Source of the DNA: Thalassotalea hakodatensis
GTDB lineage: Bacteria; Pseudomonadota; Gammaproteobacteria; Enterobacterales; Alteromonadaceae
DNA: 64,000 bases
Direction of reading: 5' to 3'
NCBI RefSeq assembly: GCF_030295995.1
Contig: NZ_AP027365.1
Span: 1,116,001 to 1,180,000, forward strand
The position numbers and the translations under genes were made by a program. The notes under the pieces are model-generated. The model worked only from the letters and a program-made list of their open reading frames with translations. It searched no databases and was not told where the DNA came from. Shown piece after piece: positions 1 through 29,751 of this stretch. Each line of letters starts with the position of its first letter. The stretch's first letter is position 1.

Positions 1-3000
1 TACCTACCGCTATGAGCGATATGGGCCTATCACGTCACAAGATACCTTATGGAATATTGCACTTACCGTGCGTCCTGATCCTGCTTTTTCTGTGTATCAG
101 GTGATGCAAGCGTTGTTTGAAAAGAACCCGCAAGCATTTAAAGACAGTAATTTAAATCACATGATAGATGGTCAATACTTGACGTTGCCATCTACGGCAG
201 AAATTGCACGCATAAATCCGGCAATTGCAAAACAAAAATCGGAAAATGATGACTCATCATGGGATAAAAAAGTTACCGCTAAGCCAGTCAGTAAGAAACC
301 ACCTGAAGAGTCGGTAAAGAAAAAAGATTTAGATCAAGCGAAAACCGAAATAAATGATAAATTACAAACGTACGAGCAGTCGCAAAATCTTCGTTTAGAC
401 ACGATACAAAACGATGTACTTGATTCCATCGATGGCCTTCAAACAATACTTAAAGAAAACGAACAGCTTAAACAAAAACTTAATACCTTTACAGAGCAAC
501 TTGGTAGCATGAAAGATGAAGTTGCAAAAAGTAAAGATGTAGAGTTGCAACAACAACAAACTATTACTCTTTTACAGACACTTTTGGCGAAAGCCGAGGC
601 TGAAGAACAAGCACGTCTCAAGGCTGAGCAAGCATTAGAAAATGCCAATGACAGCTTCTTAAATAGTCCATGGTTTTTGGCGATGGGGATAGGGTTGCCG
701 TTAGCGTTAATTGCAGGGTTGTTACTGTTATTTTTGCGTAAAAAGCAAGATGAACAACCTAAAGAGAAGGTTGTTGAACAAAAGTCACAACCACCAGTAA
801 GTGAAGACATCCCGGAAAAAACTGAAAGTCAGCCTACAGAAGAACTATCATTAGACGATGAACTATCGCTTGATGATGAGTTGTCTTTAGACGATGAACT
901 CTCTCTTGATGACGAACTGTCTATTGACCTTTCAGAAGGTGATGACAATGATGATTCTTTATTTAGTGATGATCTTGAATCTCCCAATGAAGAGTTATTA
1001 GATGACGATGTCATTCATTTAGACGATAGCTTGAATGATATCGATGATCTAGATGATTTAGATGATCTTGGCGACTTAGACGATTTAGAGGAGATATCCT
1101 TAGACTCCTCAGAAGAATCAGAACCTTTAGAAGGTAATGAATTAGATCAAAGTGATTTAGATTCGTTGTTATCTGACCTTGACGAAAACGAAGACGATGC
1201 ACCTGAAAAAGATGTTTTAGATGGTGATGAAGAAATCGTTGAAATTTCTGAAGACATTGAATTAAACGATCCCGATGACATCGACGCGTTAATGGATTCT
1301 ATGGCGGCAGCGCCAGCAGCGGAAGAGCCATTAGCAGTAAATGAACCCTCAGCAGTGGATGAGCCCTCAGCAGAAGAAACTCCATCAGTTGATGATGATT
1401 TATCATCAGAGCTGAGCGATCCTGATGACATCGACGCGTTAATGGATTCTATGGCGGCAGCACCAGCAGCGGAAGAGCCCTCAGCAGTAGATGAACCCTC
1501 AGCAGTAGATGAACCCTCAGCAGTGGATGAGCCCTCAGCAGAAGAAACTCCATCAGTTGATGATGATTTATCATCAGAGCTGAGCGATCCTGATGACATC
1601 GACGAGTTAATGGACTCTATGGCGGCAGCACCAGCAGCGGAAGAGCCCTCAGCAGTGGATGAACCCTCAGCAGAAGAAACATCATCAGTTGACGATGATT
1701 TAACGTCAGAATTAAGCGATCCTGATGACATCGACGCGTTAATGGATTCTATGGCGGCAGCACCAGCAGCGGAAGAGCCCTCAGCAGTAGATGAACCCTC
1801 AGCAGTGGATAAACCTTCAGCAGAAGAAACTCCATCAGTTGACGATGATTTATCGTCAGAATTAAGCGATCCAGATGACATCGACGCGTTAATGGACTCT
1901 ATGGCGGCAGCACCAGCAGCGGAAGAGCCCCCAGCAGTGGATAAACCTTCAGCAGAAGAAACTCCATCAGTTGACGACGATTTATCATCAGAACTGAGCG
2001 ATCCTGATGATATTGACGCGCTAATGGATTCTATGGCGGCAGCACCAGCAGCGGAAGAAACACCGTCAGTTGACGATGATTTATCATCAGAATTAAGCGA
2101 TCCTGATGATATCGATGCATTAATGGATTCTATGGCGGCACCTACCGCATCCGAAAATAACCCACTGGTTGAAGCAGAGCCGACAAATGACACTATACCG
2201 ACTGTTGAAGATGAACAGCCAAATGAAAGTGAACATAGCTCGCCAACCGAAGGTGATAACAAAGTGTTAATTGATAACCTGCCAGAGGAATATGTTGAAT
2301 CGTTTTTAGCTGTTGATTTAAGTGATTTAGCGGAGTCGAACGTTGAAGAACCTGAGTCCATTGTTAATAAAACACAAGCTTCTGATGGTATTGATATTGA
2401 TGCCCTTTTAGCGGAAGAACAAGAAATTTCACCCCAAGAACAAGAAGGTAGGGTTGAAGAAGATTTAGATATTGACGATTTGCTCGCGGAAGTTGCACAA
2501 GAAAGCGGTGCGTTAACTGATGATGAACCGCTTGAAATTGGGGATGATATTGAATCAGCAAACACAGAAGATATCACTGATGGCTTATCGGATGAACTTC
2601 AAGCGGATTTAAACGCAGAATTTGACGAATCAACGTTGTCTGAATTATTAAACGACGAACAATCAAGGAATGAAGCCGTTGAAATTACGCCTGACTTTAC
2701 AGATAGTAATGTATTAGCCGATTTATTGGCTGATGATAATGAAAATACACAGGTTGAAAAAGTTGAAGCGAAAGAGTTAGAAGACATTGAAGAACTCGAT
2801 AATTTAGATTTTGACGAGCTTTTAGCAAACATTGAAGAAGAGCCTGCAGAATCAAGTTCTGAAAGCTTTGACGTTTCTGCTGAACAACAAGTTGAAGAAG
2901 AAGAGACACCGAGTGAGTTTTCTCAAGATACAGAAAGTCAAAATAAAGATTTCATTTCTGTTGATGAATTAATCTCTGAAACCTTATCAGAAGGCTCAGA

Positions 3001-3253
3001 TGATGAAGAACCTTATGATAAAACAAATATTGATGTTGGCTTAGGTGAGTTTCCAGAGTTTACTCGCGATATCAACCAAATTGATGTTGATGAAGATGAT
3101 GACAGTGGCGTGACTGCTAAATTAGACTTGGCAAAAGTATATATTGAAATTGGTGATAATGATAATGCTGAAGTCATTTTACAAGACGTGGTTAAACTAG
3201 GTGATGCTGATCAGCAATTTGAAGCTCAGCAACTATTAGATGGTTTAAAGTAA
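1..3253 (+). CDS. fimV: FimV-like peptidoglycan-binding/polar hub protein, 5' end missing
   Basis: The reading frame is open from base 2, so the start lies left of the window. The first visible residues (YGPITSQDTLWNIA) are the end of the LysM-like region typical of FimV N-termini. There follow a coiled-coil stretch, one membrane helix at about 665-740 (FLAMGIGLPLALIAGLLLLF), a very long acidic cytoplasmic region with tandem repeats, and a C-terminal FimV-type TPR helix pair (KVYIEIGDNDNAEVILQDV). FimV homologues organise the cell pole and support type IV pili and cyclic-di-GMP signalling; that role is inferred from the family. Location upstream of truA is the usual one. The repeat region is unusually regular. 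Confidence 0.93.
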   Translation, partial: TYRYERYGPITSQDTLWNIALTVRPDPAFSVYQVMQALFEKNPQAFKDSNLNHMIDGQYLTLPSTAEIARINPAIAKQKSENDDSSWDKKVTAKPVSKKPPEESVKKKDLDQAKTEINDKLQTYEQSQNLRLDTIQNDVLDSIDGLQTILKENEQLKQKLNTFTEQLGSMKDEVAKSKDVELQQQQTITLLQTLLAKAEAEEQARLKAEQALENANDSFLNSPWFLAMGIGLPLALIAGLLLLFLRKKQDEQPKEKVVEQKSQPPVSEDIPEKTESQPTEELSLDDELSLDDELSLDDELSLDDELSIDLSEGDDNDDSLFSDDLESPNEELLDDDVIHLDDSLNDIDDLDDLDDLGDLDDLEEISLDSSEESEPLEGNELDQSDLDSLLSDLDENEDDAPEKDVLDGDEEIVEISEDIELNDPDDIDALMDSMAAAPAAEEPLAVNEPSAVDEPSAEETPSVDDDLSSELSDPDDIDALMDSMAAAPAAEEPSAVDEPSAVDEPSAVDEPSAEETPSVDDDLSSELSDPDDIDELMDSMAAAPAAEEPSAVDEPSAEETSSVDDDLTSELSDPDDIDALMDSMAAAPAAEEPSAVDEPSAVDKPSAEETPSVDDDLSSELSDPDDIDALMDSMAAAPAAEEPPAVDKPSAEETPSVDDDLSSELSDPDDIDALMDSMAAAPAAEETPSVDDDLSSELSDPDDIDALMDSMAAPTASENNPLVEAEPTNDTIPTVEDEQPNESEHSSPTEGDNKVLIDNLPEEYVESFLAVDLSDLAESNVEEPESIVNKTQASDGIDIDALLAEEQEISPQEQEGRVEEDLDIDDLLAEVAQESGALTDDEPLEIGDDIESANTEDITDGLSDELQADLNAEFDESTLSELLNDEQSRNEAVEITPDFTDSNVLADLLADDNENTQVEKVEAKELEDIEELDNLDFDELLANIEEEPAESSSESFDVSAEQQVEEEETPSEFSQDTESQNKDFISVDELISETLSEGSDDEEPYDKTNIDVGLGEFPEFTRDINQIDVDEDDDSGVTAKLDLAKVYIEIGDNDNAEVILQDVVKLGDADQQFEAQQLLDGLK
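844..936 (+). repeat. Short LSLDDE tandem repeat in fimV
   Basis: Five consecutive copies of an 18-bp unit encode LSLDDE (the last one LSID). The codons vary between copies, so this is an older repeat than the 1268-2140 block or is kept by selection on the protein. Confidence 0.8.
1268..2140 (+). repeat. Seven in-frame acidic repeats inside fimV
   Basis: Copies of a segment encoding DPDDIDALMDSMAAAPAAEE begin at 1268, 1418, 1586, 1718, 1868, 2000 and 2099. Spacings are 150, 168, 132, 150, 132 and 99 bp, all multiples of three, because a PSAVDE-type linker between copies varies in number. Nucleotide identity between copies is high, which points to recent expansion and contraction. The third copy has Glu in place of the first Ala. 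Confidence 0.92.
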
Positions 3254-26892: not shown

Positions 26893-26921
26893 TTGACGAG
26901 CAAAGGGCAACTCGGTAATAT
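26893..26921 (+). promoter_or_regulatory. Sigma-70 promoter of the tRNA operon
   Basis: TTGACG and TAATAT are separated by 17 bp, followed by the GC-rich discriminator CCGCACCC usual for stringently controlled stable-RNA promoters, about 40 bp before the first tRNA. Confidence 0.8.
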
Positions 26922-26960: not shown

Positions 26961-27037
26961 CGGTGATTAGCGCAGCTTGGTAGCGCACTTGGTTTGGGTC
27001 CAAGGGGTCGCAAGTTCGAATCTTGCATCACCGACCA
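26961..27037 (+). tRNA. tRNA-Pro (anticodon TGG)
   Basis: The 77-nt gene has a CGGTGAT/ATCACCG acceptor stem, anticodon stem CTTGG/CCAAG around TTTGGGT (anticodon TGG), TTCGAAT T-loop and an encoded CCA. It is identical to the copy at 27261. Confidence 0.97.
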
Positions 27038-27091
27038 CTTTTAAATTTTTCAAAATACTGTTAAATTTAAAAACGCACTTGTAGGTCATGT

Positions 27092-27168
<77 letters not shown>

Positions 27169-27176
27169 TTCCTGTG

Positions 27177-27252
27177 GTGGCTATAGCTCAGTTGGTAGAG
27201 CCCCGGATTGTGATTCCGGTTGTCGTGGGTTCAAGTCCCATTAGCCACCCCA
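27177..27252 (+). tRNA. tRNA-His (anticodon GTG)
   Basis: The 76-nt gene has acceptor GTGGCTA/TAGCCAC, anticodon arm CCGGA-TTGTGAT-TCCGG (anticodon GTG), discriminator C and encoded CCA, the normal histidine identity set. Confidence 0.97.
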
Positions 27253-27260
27253 TTTCTCGT

Positions 27261-27337
27261 CGGTGATTAGCGCAGCTTGGTAGCGCACTTGGTTTGGGTC
27301 CAAGGGGTCGCAAGTTCGAATCTTGCATCACCGACCA
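27261..27337 (+). tRNA. tRNA-Pro (anticodon TGG), second copy
   Basis: Identical over 77 nt to the copy at 26961. It is the last complete tRNA of the cluster, and its 3' end is the source of the 19-nt motif repeated three times downstream. Confidence 0.97.
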
Positions 27338-27859
27338 CTTTTCCTTTTTGAAATTGCTCATATCAAACGTAAAAAATAAACTATTAAATTTCACTTAGAT
27401 GAGAACTTGCGAAGCAAGTCGACAAAATTGTCTGGAACAATTTTGAACGCACGTAGTGCGGCCCGAAGGGTGAAGTACAGGATGTACGGAATAATCTTGC
27501 ATCACCGACCACTTTTCCTTTTTGAAATTGCTCATATCAAACGTAAAAAATAAACTATTAAATTTCACTTAGATGAGAACTTGCGAAGCAAGTCGACAAA
27601 ATTGTCTGGAACAATTTTGAACGCACGTAGTGCGGCCCGAAGGGTGAAGTACAGGATGTACGGAATAATCTTGCATCACCGACCACTTTTCCTTTTTGAA
27701 ATTGCTCATATCAAACGTAAAAAATAAACTATTAAATTTCACTTAGATGAGAACTTGCGAAGCAAGTCGACAAAATTGTCTGGAACAATTTTGAACGCAC
27801 GTAGTGCGGCCCGGAGGGTGAAGTACAGGATGTACGGAATAATCTTGCATCACCGACCA
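27338..27859 (+). repeat. Three 174-bp tandem repeats each ending in the tRNA-Pro 3' terminus
   Basis: Units run 27338-27511, 27512-27685 and 27686-27859 and are nearly identical; the third has CCCGGAGGG for CCCGAAGGG. Each ends with AATCTTGCATCACCGACCA, the last 19 nt of tRNA-Pro including CCA. Inside each unit are hairpins: ACTTGC/GCAAGT, AAAATTGT/ACAATTTT, CGCAC/GTGCG and GTAC/GTAC. A partial fourth copy (CTTTTCC) follows. No open reading frame is conserved. The arrangement resembles the 178-bp rtT repeats of the E. coli tyrT operon. Confidence 0.93.
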
Positions 27860-28443: not shown

Positions 28444-29751
28444 ATGCAAGTTTCAGTTGAGACTACAAAAGGTTTGGAACGTAAATTAACGATTTCAGTT
28501 CCTGCAGAGAAAGTAGACGTTGAAGTAAAAAACCGTCTTCGTCATATTGCGAAGACACAAAAGATCAATGGTTTCCGTCCTGGTAAGGTTCCACCTTCTG
28601 TTATTCAAAAGCGTTACGGTAAAGCTGTACGCCAAGAAATCGCTGGTGAAGTAATGCAACGTAATTTCGTAGAAGCGATTGTTGCTGAAAAAATTAACCC
28701 TGCAGGTCGTCCTCAATTCGTTGCTAAAAGTAATGAAGATGGTCAAGATCTAGAATTTGAAGCAACGTTCGAAGTTTATCCAGAAGTTGAATTAAAAGAT
28801 TTAGATAAAATTACCGTTGAGCGTCCTGATGTTGATGTAACAGACAAAGACATTGATGAAATGTTTGTCACGTTACAGAAACAACACCAAACGTGGAAAG
28901 AAAATAAGCGTAAAACTAAGAAAGGCGATAAACTAACGATTGATTTCTTAGGCCGCGTTGATGGTGAAGAATTTGAAGGTGGTAAAGCTGAAGGTTTTGA
29001 ATTAGAACTTGGTGCTGGCCGTATGATCCCTGGTTTCGAAAAAGAAATCACGGGTATGAAAGTTGATGAAGAAAAAACAATTTCTGTGACTTTCCCTGAT
29101 GATTATCATGCTGAAAACTTAAAAGGCAAAGAAGCTGAATTTGACATCAAAGTGCATAAAACTGAAGGCCCAGTATTACCAAAAATCGATGACGAATTTG
29201 CTAAGCTATTCGGTGTTGAAGATGGTGGTGTAGATGCACTTCGTGATGAAGTAAGCAAAAACATGGCTCGTGAACTTTCACAAGCGGTAAAAACGAAAGT
29301 GAAAGAGCAAGTGATCAATGGCTTACTTGAAACTAACAGCGTTGACTTACCACAGTCATTAGTTGCTCAAGAAATTGATGTACTTCGTCAACAAGCTTTA
29401 CAACGTTTTGGTGGTCAAATGGACCCTAAAAACTTACCTGAACTACCAGCTGAAATGTTCCAAGAACAAGCTGAACGTCGTGTTAAAGTAGGTTTATTAC
29501 TTGGTGAAGTTATCAAGCAAAATGAATTAAAAGTAGACGAAGCTAAAGTCACTGAGTTGATTGAATCTGCAGCCTCTGCTTATGAAGATCCACAAGAAGT
29601 GATTGAATACTACAAGTCTAACCAAGAAATGAATCAGCAAATGCAAAACGTAGCGCTTGAAGAACAAGCCGTTGAAGTTTTACTTGCTGGTGCAAAGGTA
29701 AAAGACAAGAAATCTAACTTCAAAGATATTATGAATCCGGAAGCTAAATAA
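28444..29751 (+). CDS. tig: Trigger factor
   Basis: This 435-residue ribosome-associated chaperone and prolyl isomerase has the ribosome-binding signature GFRPGKVP near residue 45, an FKBP-type domain in the middle ([21 protein letters not shown]) and the C-terminal helical arms. GAGG precedes the ATG. It heads the conserved tig-clpP-clpX-lon series and folds nascent chains as they leave the ribosome. Confidence 0.98.

Follow-up and report, generated by a model that had tools for sequence, protein, structure and literature searches.

Three tandem tRNA-linked repeats behind a tRNA-Pro gene of Thalassotalea hakodatensis: candidate CsrA-binding RNAs of the RrB type

What are the tandem repeats that follow the last gene of a tRNA operon in Thalassotalea hakodatensis, and do they resemble the E. 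coli rtT repeats in more than their arrangement? In the window (the whole analysed stretch of DNA, 64,000 nucleotides of contig NZ_AP027365.1), positions 27338-27859 are filled by three tandem 174-bp units with a start-to-start spacing of 174 (TRF score 1096, 99% matches, 3.2 copies). Units 1 and 2 have the same sequence, from which unit 3 departs at a single base (A>G; position 129 of the unit, 27814 of the window). An earlier note on this DNA had claimed that each unit closes with the 19-nt tRNA-Pro 3' terminus, which is exact in three of three: all end in AATCTTGCATCACCGACCA, the last 19 nucleotides of tRNA-Pro(TGG) 27261-27337 (19/19). Its statement that the two tRNA-Pro genes of the cluster (26961-27037 and 27261-27337) are identical was confirmed by comparison. 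The operon reads Pro(TGG)-Arg(TCT)-His(GTG)-Pro(TGG) over 26961-27337 and the array starts directly after the last tRNA (Table 1), i.e. in a tRNA operon and immediately 3' of an RNA gene, the position that marks tRNA-linked repeats (TLRs). A promoter-like site 5' of the operon is possibly its promoter; 10 such sites were found in the stretch against 4.7 expected. No intrinsic terminator-like site was found from tRNA-Pro to the gene 3' of the array (28444-29751), which is tig, trigger factor, according to Pfam. The trigger factor protein recurs at 100% identity in two named Thalassotalea genomes, in line with the genus. With a promoter-like site in front and no terminator-like site behind, the array may therefore belong to the tRNA transcript. 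Elsewhere in the window, long nested tandem repeats (18-, 99-, 132- and 168-bp units among them) occupy positions 842-2172 within a 1061-aa ORF (68-3253).

Table 1. Features of the tRNA operon and of the repeat array, in window coordinates.
Feature	Position	Strand	Remarks
Promoter-like site TTGACG-N17-TAATAT	26893..26921	+	consensus match only; ~40 nt 5' of first tRNA-Pro
tRNA-Pro(TGG), copy 1	26961..27037	+	
tRNA-Arg(TCT)	27092..27168	+	
tRNA-His(GTG)	27177..27252	+	
tRNA-Pro(TGG), copy 2	27261..27337	+	directly 5' of array; source of tail sequence
TLR unit 1	27338..27511	+	core 27420-27492, tail 27493-27511
TLR unit 2 (= unit 1)	27512..27685	+	core 27594-27666, tail 27667-27685
TLR unit 3	27686..27859	+	core 27768-27840, tail 27841-27859; A>G at 27814
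Hairpin 1, unit 1: ACTTGC GAA GCAAGT	27405..27419	+	
Hairpin 2, unit 1: 9-bp stem, loop CTGGA	27423..27445	+	fold and covariation
Hairpin 3, unit 1: CGCAC..GTGCG	27448..27460	+	covariation
Hairpin 4, unit 1: CCC GAA GGG	27462..27470	+	covariation
Hairpin 5, unit 1: GTAC AGGAT GTAC	27475..27487	+	covariation, loop conservation

Each unit comprises an AT-rich left part, five small hairpins and the tail. Hairpins 2 to 5 make up a core that reads CGA-(CAAAATTGT CTGGA ACAATTTTG)-AA-(CGCAC..GTGCG)-G-(CCC GAA GGG)-TGAA-(GTAC AGGAT GTAC)-GGAAT in unit 1, with GGA in loops 2 and 5; the loop of hairpin 5, CAGGAUG, corresponds to the repeated motif of CsrB. The single base change turns the fourth hairpin of unit 3 into CCCGGAGGG, and the 3' arm of hairpin 1 is, by eye, similar to the 5' half of the tRNA-Pro T-arm. 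Folded as a single unit, the GGA of hairpin 2 is unpaired with a probability of 0.99-1.0, that of hairpin 5 with just 0.37-0.48. The fold of the whole array (522 nt) contains one GGA hairpin loop against a mean of 0.56 in shuffles, and one of the three units has its tail in competition with hairpin 5. Cores folded alone form two or more GGA hairpin loops in 99 of 121 cases, compared to 10 of 605 shuffles. The RtT consensus has a closing stem in which the left flank pairs with the tail. Among the modules described below such a stem is strong at Glu and Tyr units, at most of the Ser units and at several of the Arg and Lys units, with a mean of -12.95 kcal/mol against -10.47 for mismatched partners (50 distinct pairs). 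It is weak in most Pro units, those of the window included (-7.8 kcal/mol, below most mismatched pairs in strength), and was rejected as a universal feature.

The units of rtT are about 178 bp long. According to PMC8144298, rtT is one of 22 TLRs at ten loci of E. coli K-12, each of which carries 18-19 bp of the 3' end of its upstream RNA. The same paper dates the first description of TLRs to 1978, cites Egan and Landy 1978, Bosl and Kersten 1991 and 1994 and Rudd 1999, reports an amino-acid-starvation role of rtT as retracted, and gives no TLR a known function before RrB. RrB is described there as binding CsrA in vitro via GGA motifs (KD about 100 nM), as giving no shift in the tested range once three GGAs are replaced, and as visible in RNAs of about 173 and 115 nt, the longer of which extends 3 nt beyond the repeated end. 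By score, the three TLRs linked to rRNA count as CsrA binders, and the 19 of tRNA operons, at below 0.01 as CsrB-like, do not (PMC8144298).

Two covariance models of the core were used: R1, made from 11 cores of the own family without enterobacterial sequence, and R2, an enlarged model. R1 finds RrB, the TLR of E. coli rrnB, over its full length (54.2 bits, E 1.5e-12 in 801 bases), and when RrB is aligned with the window core, 48 of 73 bases agree, those of both GGA loops among them. R2 matches three of three rtT units weakly (20.4-22.1 bits, E 3e-5 to 8e-5 in 1.7 kb; next match in the region 4.2 bits); scaled to the whole genome these matches would not be significant alone, and the case for homology with rtT is that every one of the three units is matched, each in its proper place and on the correct strand. 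The GGA count per core is 0 in all three rtT units, 5 in RrB and 3 in the window. From these matches the window units, RrB and rtT most likely represent one family, its core homologous in all of them, and despite their position behind a tRNA the window units are akin to the CsrA-binding branch of the TLRs.

The earlier note had seen in the array an rtT-like architecture with seemingly unrelated internal hairpins, arisen either independently or as part of a wider class of tRNA-derived repeat. The architecture, i.e. tandem units behind a tRNA with a copied tRNA end, is borne out, and the wider class exists under the name of TLRs. The lack of relation between the hairpins does not stand up to the R1 match with RrB and the weaker R2 matches with rtT, on which an independent origin is likewise rejected. 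Cuts at each CCA, as the note supposed, may release RNAs of about 170 nt; those of RrB have about 173 and 115 nt. In the proposed covariance search, the new core models find RrB and, weakly, rtT, and Rfam RtT (RF00391) covers each of the window units over its whole length, with just 18.4-18.5 bits (E 0.55-0.57), below its gathering score of 45. At gathering score, the Rfam scan of the window returned tRNA and SRP RNA only. Rfam models of the CsrB/C type do not match the array, and the weak Rfam matches besides RtT look like chance.

The genome of T. hakodatensis contains ten modules according to R1, viz. three in the window, three at tRNA-Lys, one at tRNA-Tyr, one at ATP synthase and two that flank a transposase; R2 finds the same ten and one more at E 4.28. 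One module stands behind each of three tRNA-Lys copies and one behind tRNA-Tyr. The tails of the Tyr module and of the first Lys module are exact copies of the tRNA 3' end, the second Lys tail agrees with its tRNA at 17 of 19 positions, and the third is decayed. The ATP-synthase module (G000:C1:4264712-4264785, L115:913-986) lies between the A-chain gene (Pfam) and atpE (by eye). The two remaining modules (G000:C1:728314-728379 and 729125-729197, i.e. L114:715-780 and L114:1526-1598) flank a 190-aa ORF of the IS110 family, with a Transposase_20 (IS116/IS110/IS902) match at E 1.6e-19. Dispersal of the unit without any tRNA, which the earlier note had held against its own reading, applies to the core of ~73 nt, found also away from tRNAs, and not to the complete 174-bp unit, which is restricted to the window array within this genome. 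The genome encodes csrA (G000:C1:3092616-3092771, E 1.6e-25), as do most relatives, with a CsrA match in 97 of 98 family genomes. The one genome without a match is G121; the sole weak match (E 2.1e-5) is that of G027, which has no R1 match either.

R1 matches at E <= 0.001 occur in at least 142 of 196 sampled genomes of the family and at least 46 of 52 genera, and the highest copy number per genome is at least 25 (25 candidates scored per genome, strict filters). R2 matches are found in 148 of 394 genomes across the order, a count that takes in the own family (12 candidates scored per genome). From 99 of 153 loci (all except L001-L037, L054-L064 and, as repeats, L066, L067, L069, L070, L071 and L074) 127 distinct modules were taken, merged from the best 150 of 154 matches (alignment A3) and the window units. 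Where the nearest upstream gene is a tRNA, the module is on its strand in 84 of 85 cases, tandem units counted singly; beside protein genes 43 are on the same and 28 on the opposite strand, as judged with a crude gene caller that calls ORFs in rRNA too. Further hosts are 5S rRNA genes, confirmed by rRNA models at L094 and L107 and recognised by sequence signature at the other 5S loci. Same-strand upstream protein genes (Pfam) encode EF-Tu (L087, L099, L120), serine hydroxymethyltransferase, phosphoglycerate kinase, 6-phosphogluconate dehydrogenase, enolase, COX3, RuvB, S41 peptidase, a purine-synthesis amidotransferase and the ATP synthase A chain. Between gene and module there is anything from a 7-nt overlap to a distance of 295 nt, and the module may be part of the mRNAs of these genes.

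Tails were compared in 74 of the 75 modules with a tRNA up to 500 nt upstream, one being dropped for too little downstream sequence. The tail matches the own tRNA at 16 or more of 19 positions in 53 of these 74, with own-tRNA tails seen for Pro, Lys, Arg, Glu, Ser and Tyr. None of 1112 comparisons with the ends of tRNAs for other amino acids reaches 16/19, and chance is thereby excluded. The remaining 21 tails score 7 to 15; inner tandem units, decayed tails and units beside another tRNA are among them. Tails can also copy the end of the tuf coding sequence, over 42 nt in L093 (gene by eye) and in an exact run of 22 nt in L087; no such copy was found in the tails of L120 and L099. The tail of L139 reads as a tuf end as well, the gene itself lying beyond the contig end, and in L093 and L139 the left flank is complementary to the tuf-type tail over 10-11 bp (by eye). 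At L151:451-523, L109:5718-5790 and L140:1165-1243 the module sits inside the apparent D-loop of a 5' tRNA-Ser fragment and an intact tRNA-Ser follows downstream, so that the usual order is mirrored. In family f16 (L185, L189) modules lie inside apparent dispersed repeats continuing AAAGAAAAGTAAC, and that of L189 adjoins an inverted partner.

The stems of the module change in step, as follows from the excess of double changes over shuffles. In a structure-blind MAFFT alignment of 63 diverse cores (A4: 62 of 70 picked cores and the window core), 98.1% of the cells of the four hairpins are paired and double changes occur at 19 of 21 pairs, in 278 cells compared to 77.0 in shuffles and 17-36 with partners slid. 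The model-fitted alignment of 119 distinct rows contains 433 double-change cells against 118.8 in shuffles. Selection on the RNA strand, looked for as an excess of G-U pairs over A-C mismatches, is not clearly seen: the two stand at 23 to 12 (p = 0.09) in the model-fitted alignment and at 8 to 8 in the MAFFT alignment. Conservation was measured at the columns invariant in the 11 seed sequences, over 90 distinct non-seed matches with most seed-genus loci set aside. The six GGA columns of loops 2 and 5 are kept at 99-100%, stem columns at 30-100% and non-GGA unpaired columns at 85-100%. The loops are the best-kept part of the module, but since the other unpaired columns are also well kept, their conservation is special only in part. 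Among 121 distinct cores, a GGA loop is present at hairpin 2 in 115, at hairpin 5 in 113 and at both in 107; among 50 cores of other families the respective numbers are 48, 47 and 45. These counts are biased, because the search models include GGA loops. Conserved GGA hairpin loops on covarying stems are what a CsrA-binding RNA would be expected to retain.

Among the relatives the array is patchy at the tig locus. The survey covered 51 of 64 loci (all but L220 and L221, with the neighbour gene at the contig end, and the distant L253 and L256-L265), and a module is present upstream of tig at 10, including 9 of the 41 where tRNA-Pro was found. With the exact Pro-Arg-His-Pro layout before tig, 7 of 30 relatives possess the module, a distribution that lends no support to the duplicated tRNA-Pro as the driver of amplification, as had been supposed. 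Tail arrays behind tRNA-Pro in which the models detect no module occur at L051 (G029; 102-bp partial tRNA-Pro units), L254 and L255, a single tRNA-Pro tail without a module found at L219 and L251, and three whole tRNA-Pro genes in a row at L050. The module interrupts an apparent T-arm at TTCGA/A, and together these loci suggest that partial tRNA copies may arise first and that modules then settle in them. Behind the third tRNA-Lys, L046 contains a 54-bp repeat in 2.9 copies, in which a tRNA-Lys tail is joined by no more than a hairpin-5 stub (CATACAGCATGTACGGAAT).

The explanation that we favour, and hold to be somewhat probable on the whole of this analysis, is that the array represents three TLRs of the RrB type, co-transcribed with the tRNAs, processed, and binding CsrA in connection with stable-RNA transcription. 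It builds on the repeats and their tails, the homology to RrB and rtT, the covarying stems, the conserved GGA loops and the presence of csrA in the genome. The array would be transcribed as 3' trailer of the Pro-Arg-His-Pro operon and the RNAs cut near each copied tRNA 3' end, as proposed for RrB. Each RNA is predicted to expose two GGA loops, loop 5 in part only, and by analogy with RrB these would bind CsrA. As the RNA would be made along with the tRNA, CsrA would be titrated in step with stable-RNA synthesis, presumably as a mild, growth-linked withdrawal; the effects seen in E. coli are modest and in part contradictory. Against the CsrA reading stand the poor predicted fold of the whole array, with loop 5 partly masked by the tail, the patchy tig locus, the module-free tail arrays, the weak strand bias at protein genes, the copies flanking the IS110-family ORF, the closing stem that is weak in most Pro units, the bias of the loop counts together with a loop conservation that is special only in part, and the lack of a clear G-U excess in either alignment.

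Several of these points belong to the main rival of the CsrA reading, which regards the module as REP- or MITE-like repetitive DNA that inserts into hairpin-forming gene ends, with hairpins that serve mobility and the array as a by-product of insertion and slippage. We consider this account possible, if on the unlikely side. The core is dispersed, with at least 25 matches in one genome, some genomes of other families contain near-identical copies, and split sites resemble one another on inspection by eye (TTCGA/A in T-loops, TGA/GAG in 5S, TGA/A in the tRNA-Ser D-loop and tuf). Inverted neighbour pairs occur at L155, L173, L189, L197 and L198, as inspected in loci other than L157, L159, L160, L162-L165, L167 (own family) and L170. 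The two own-genome copies beside the transposase ORF and the even G-U ratio of the MAFFT alignment agree with mobility, too. However, first units of congeners covary at the orthologous site (AAAATTGT/ACAATTTT vs AACATTGT/ACAATGTT), for which insertion alone is insufficient; the GGA loops are kept, tRNA-linked copies lie on the sense strand with one exception, and RrB is a CsrA-binding RNA (PMC8144298). A mobile origin of the repeat is quite possible, and it is compatible with a role in CsrA binding.

An improbable alternative is a trailer element for 3' maturation, termination or protection of the tRNA precursor, in which the tail provides a tRNA-like product end and GGA is incidental. The own-tRNA tails of the 53 modules, the lack of an intrinsic terminator-like site between tRNA-Pro and tig, and the closing stems that are strong at tRNAs other than Pro (Glu and Tyr, most of the Ser and several of the Arg and Lys units) would suit such an element, whereas the closing stem is weak in most Pro units, including those of the window, tails of some last units decay while their loops remain, and 32 of the 41 related loci with tRNA-Pro show no module. 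That the array is a functionless leftover of unequal exchange, comprising a partial tRNA-Pro copy and whatever lay behind it, agrees with the module-free tail arrays and the triple tRNA-Pro genes of relatives and with the identical, hence recent, units 1 and 2, but is very hard to maintain with the same core, on covarying stems, behind Lys, Tyr, Arg, Ser, Glu, 5S and tuf.

If the array consists of CsrA-binding RNAs, the Csr system would be tied directly to the transcription of tRNA, rRNA and EF-Tu: hairpins with the loop signature of CsrA behind a tRNA mean that transcripts of the translation machinery may soak up this global regulator. The presence of tRNA-linked TLRs with CsrA-type loops on covarying stems in many genera points to CsrA binding as a function of TLRs that is old or common, and these genera provide natural replicates for it. 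A wider reading is offered tentatively and is rather doubtful: one module on growth transcripts (tRNAs, 5S, tuf, metabolic genes) across much of the order would constitute a distributed CsrA buffer, parallel to CsrB/C, that reports the transcription of stable RNA and EF-Tu, many of its tails deriving from the 3' end of the host and TLRs of the rtT type being remnants without CsrA loops.

The new part of these results lies in TLRs of tRNA operons that keep the GGA loops which rtT lacks, and in their breadth; the open-licence PMC literature yielded no precedent for TLRs with GGA loops in the tRNA operons of bacteria other than E. coli. With rtT (RttR, tyrT, RF00391) the window units share the tandem arrangement behind a tRNA, the copied tRNA end and a homologous core, in which the window possesses three GGAs and the rtT units none. 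With RrA, RrB and RrF of the rrn operons they share, as far as the R1 search, which covered RrB only, bears on this likeness, a four-hairpin core, GGA at hairpins 2 and 5 and a copied 3' end of the upstream stable RNA; RrB and window unit 3 also have the same fourth hairpin, CCCGGAGGG. In contrast to these three, the window units stand behind a tRNA, occur three in tandem, show no terminator-like site and are putative as RNAs and as CsrA binders. GGA in hairpin loops is shared with sRNAs of the CsrB/CsrC type, e.g. Pf1 of Pseudoalteromonas (PMC9927453). CsrB and CsrC have about 18 and nine motifs, respectively (PMC8144298), whereas the window array is the trailer of an operon and each of its units has GGA in two loops.
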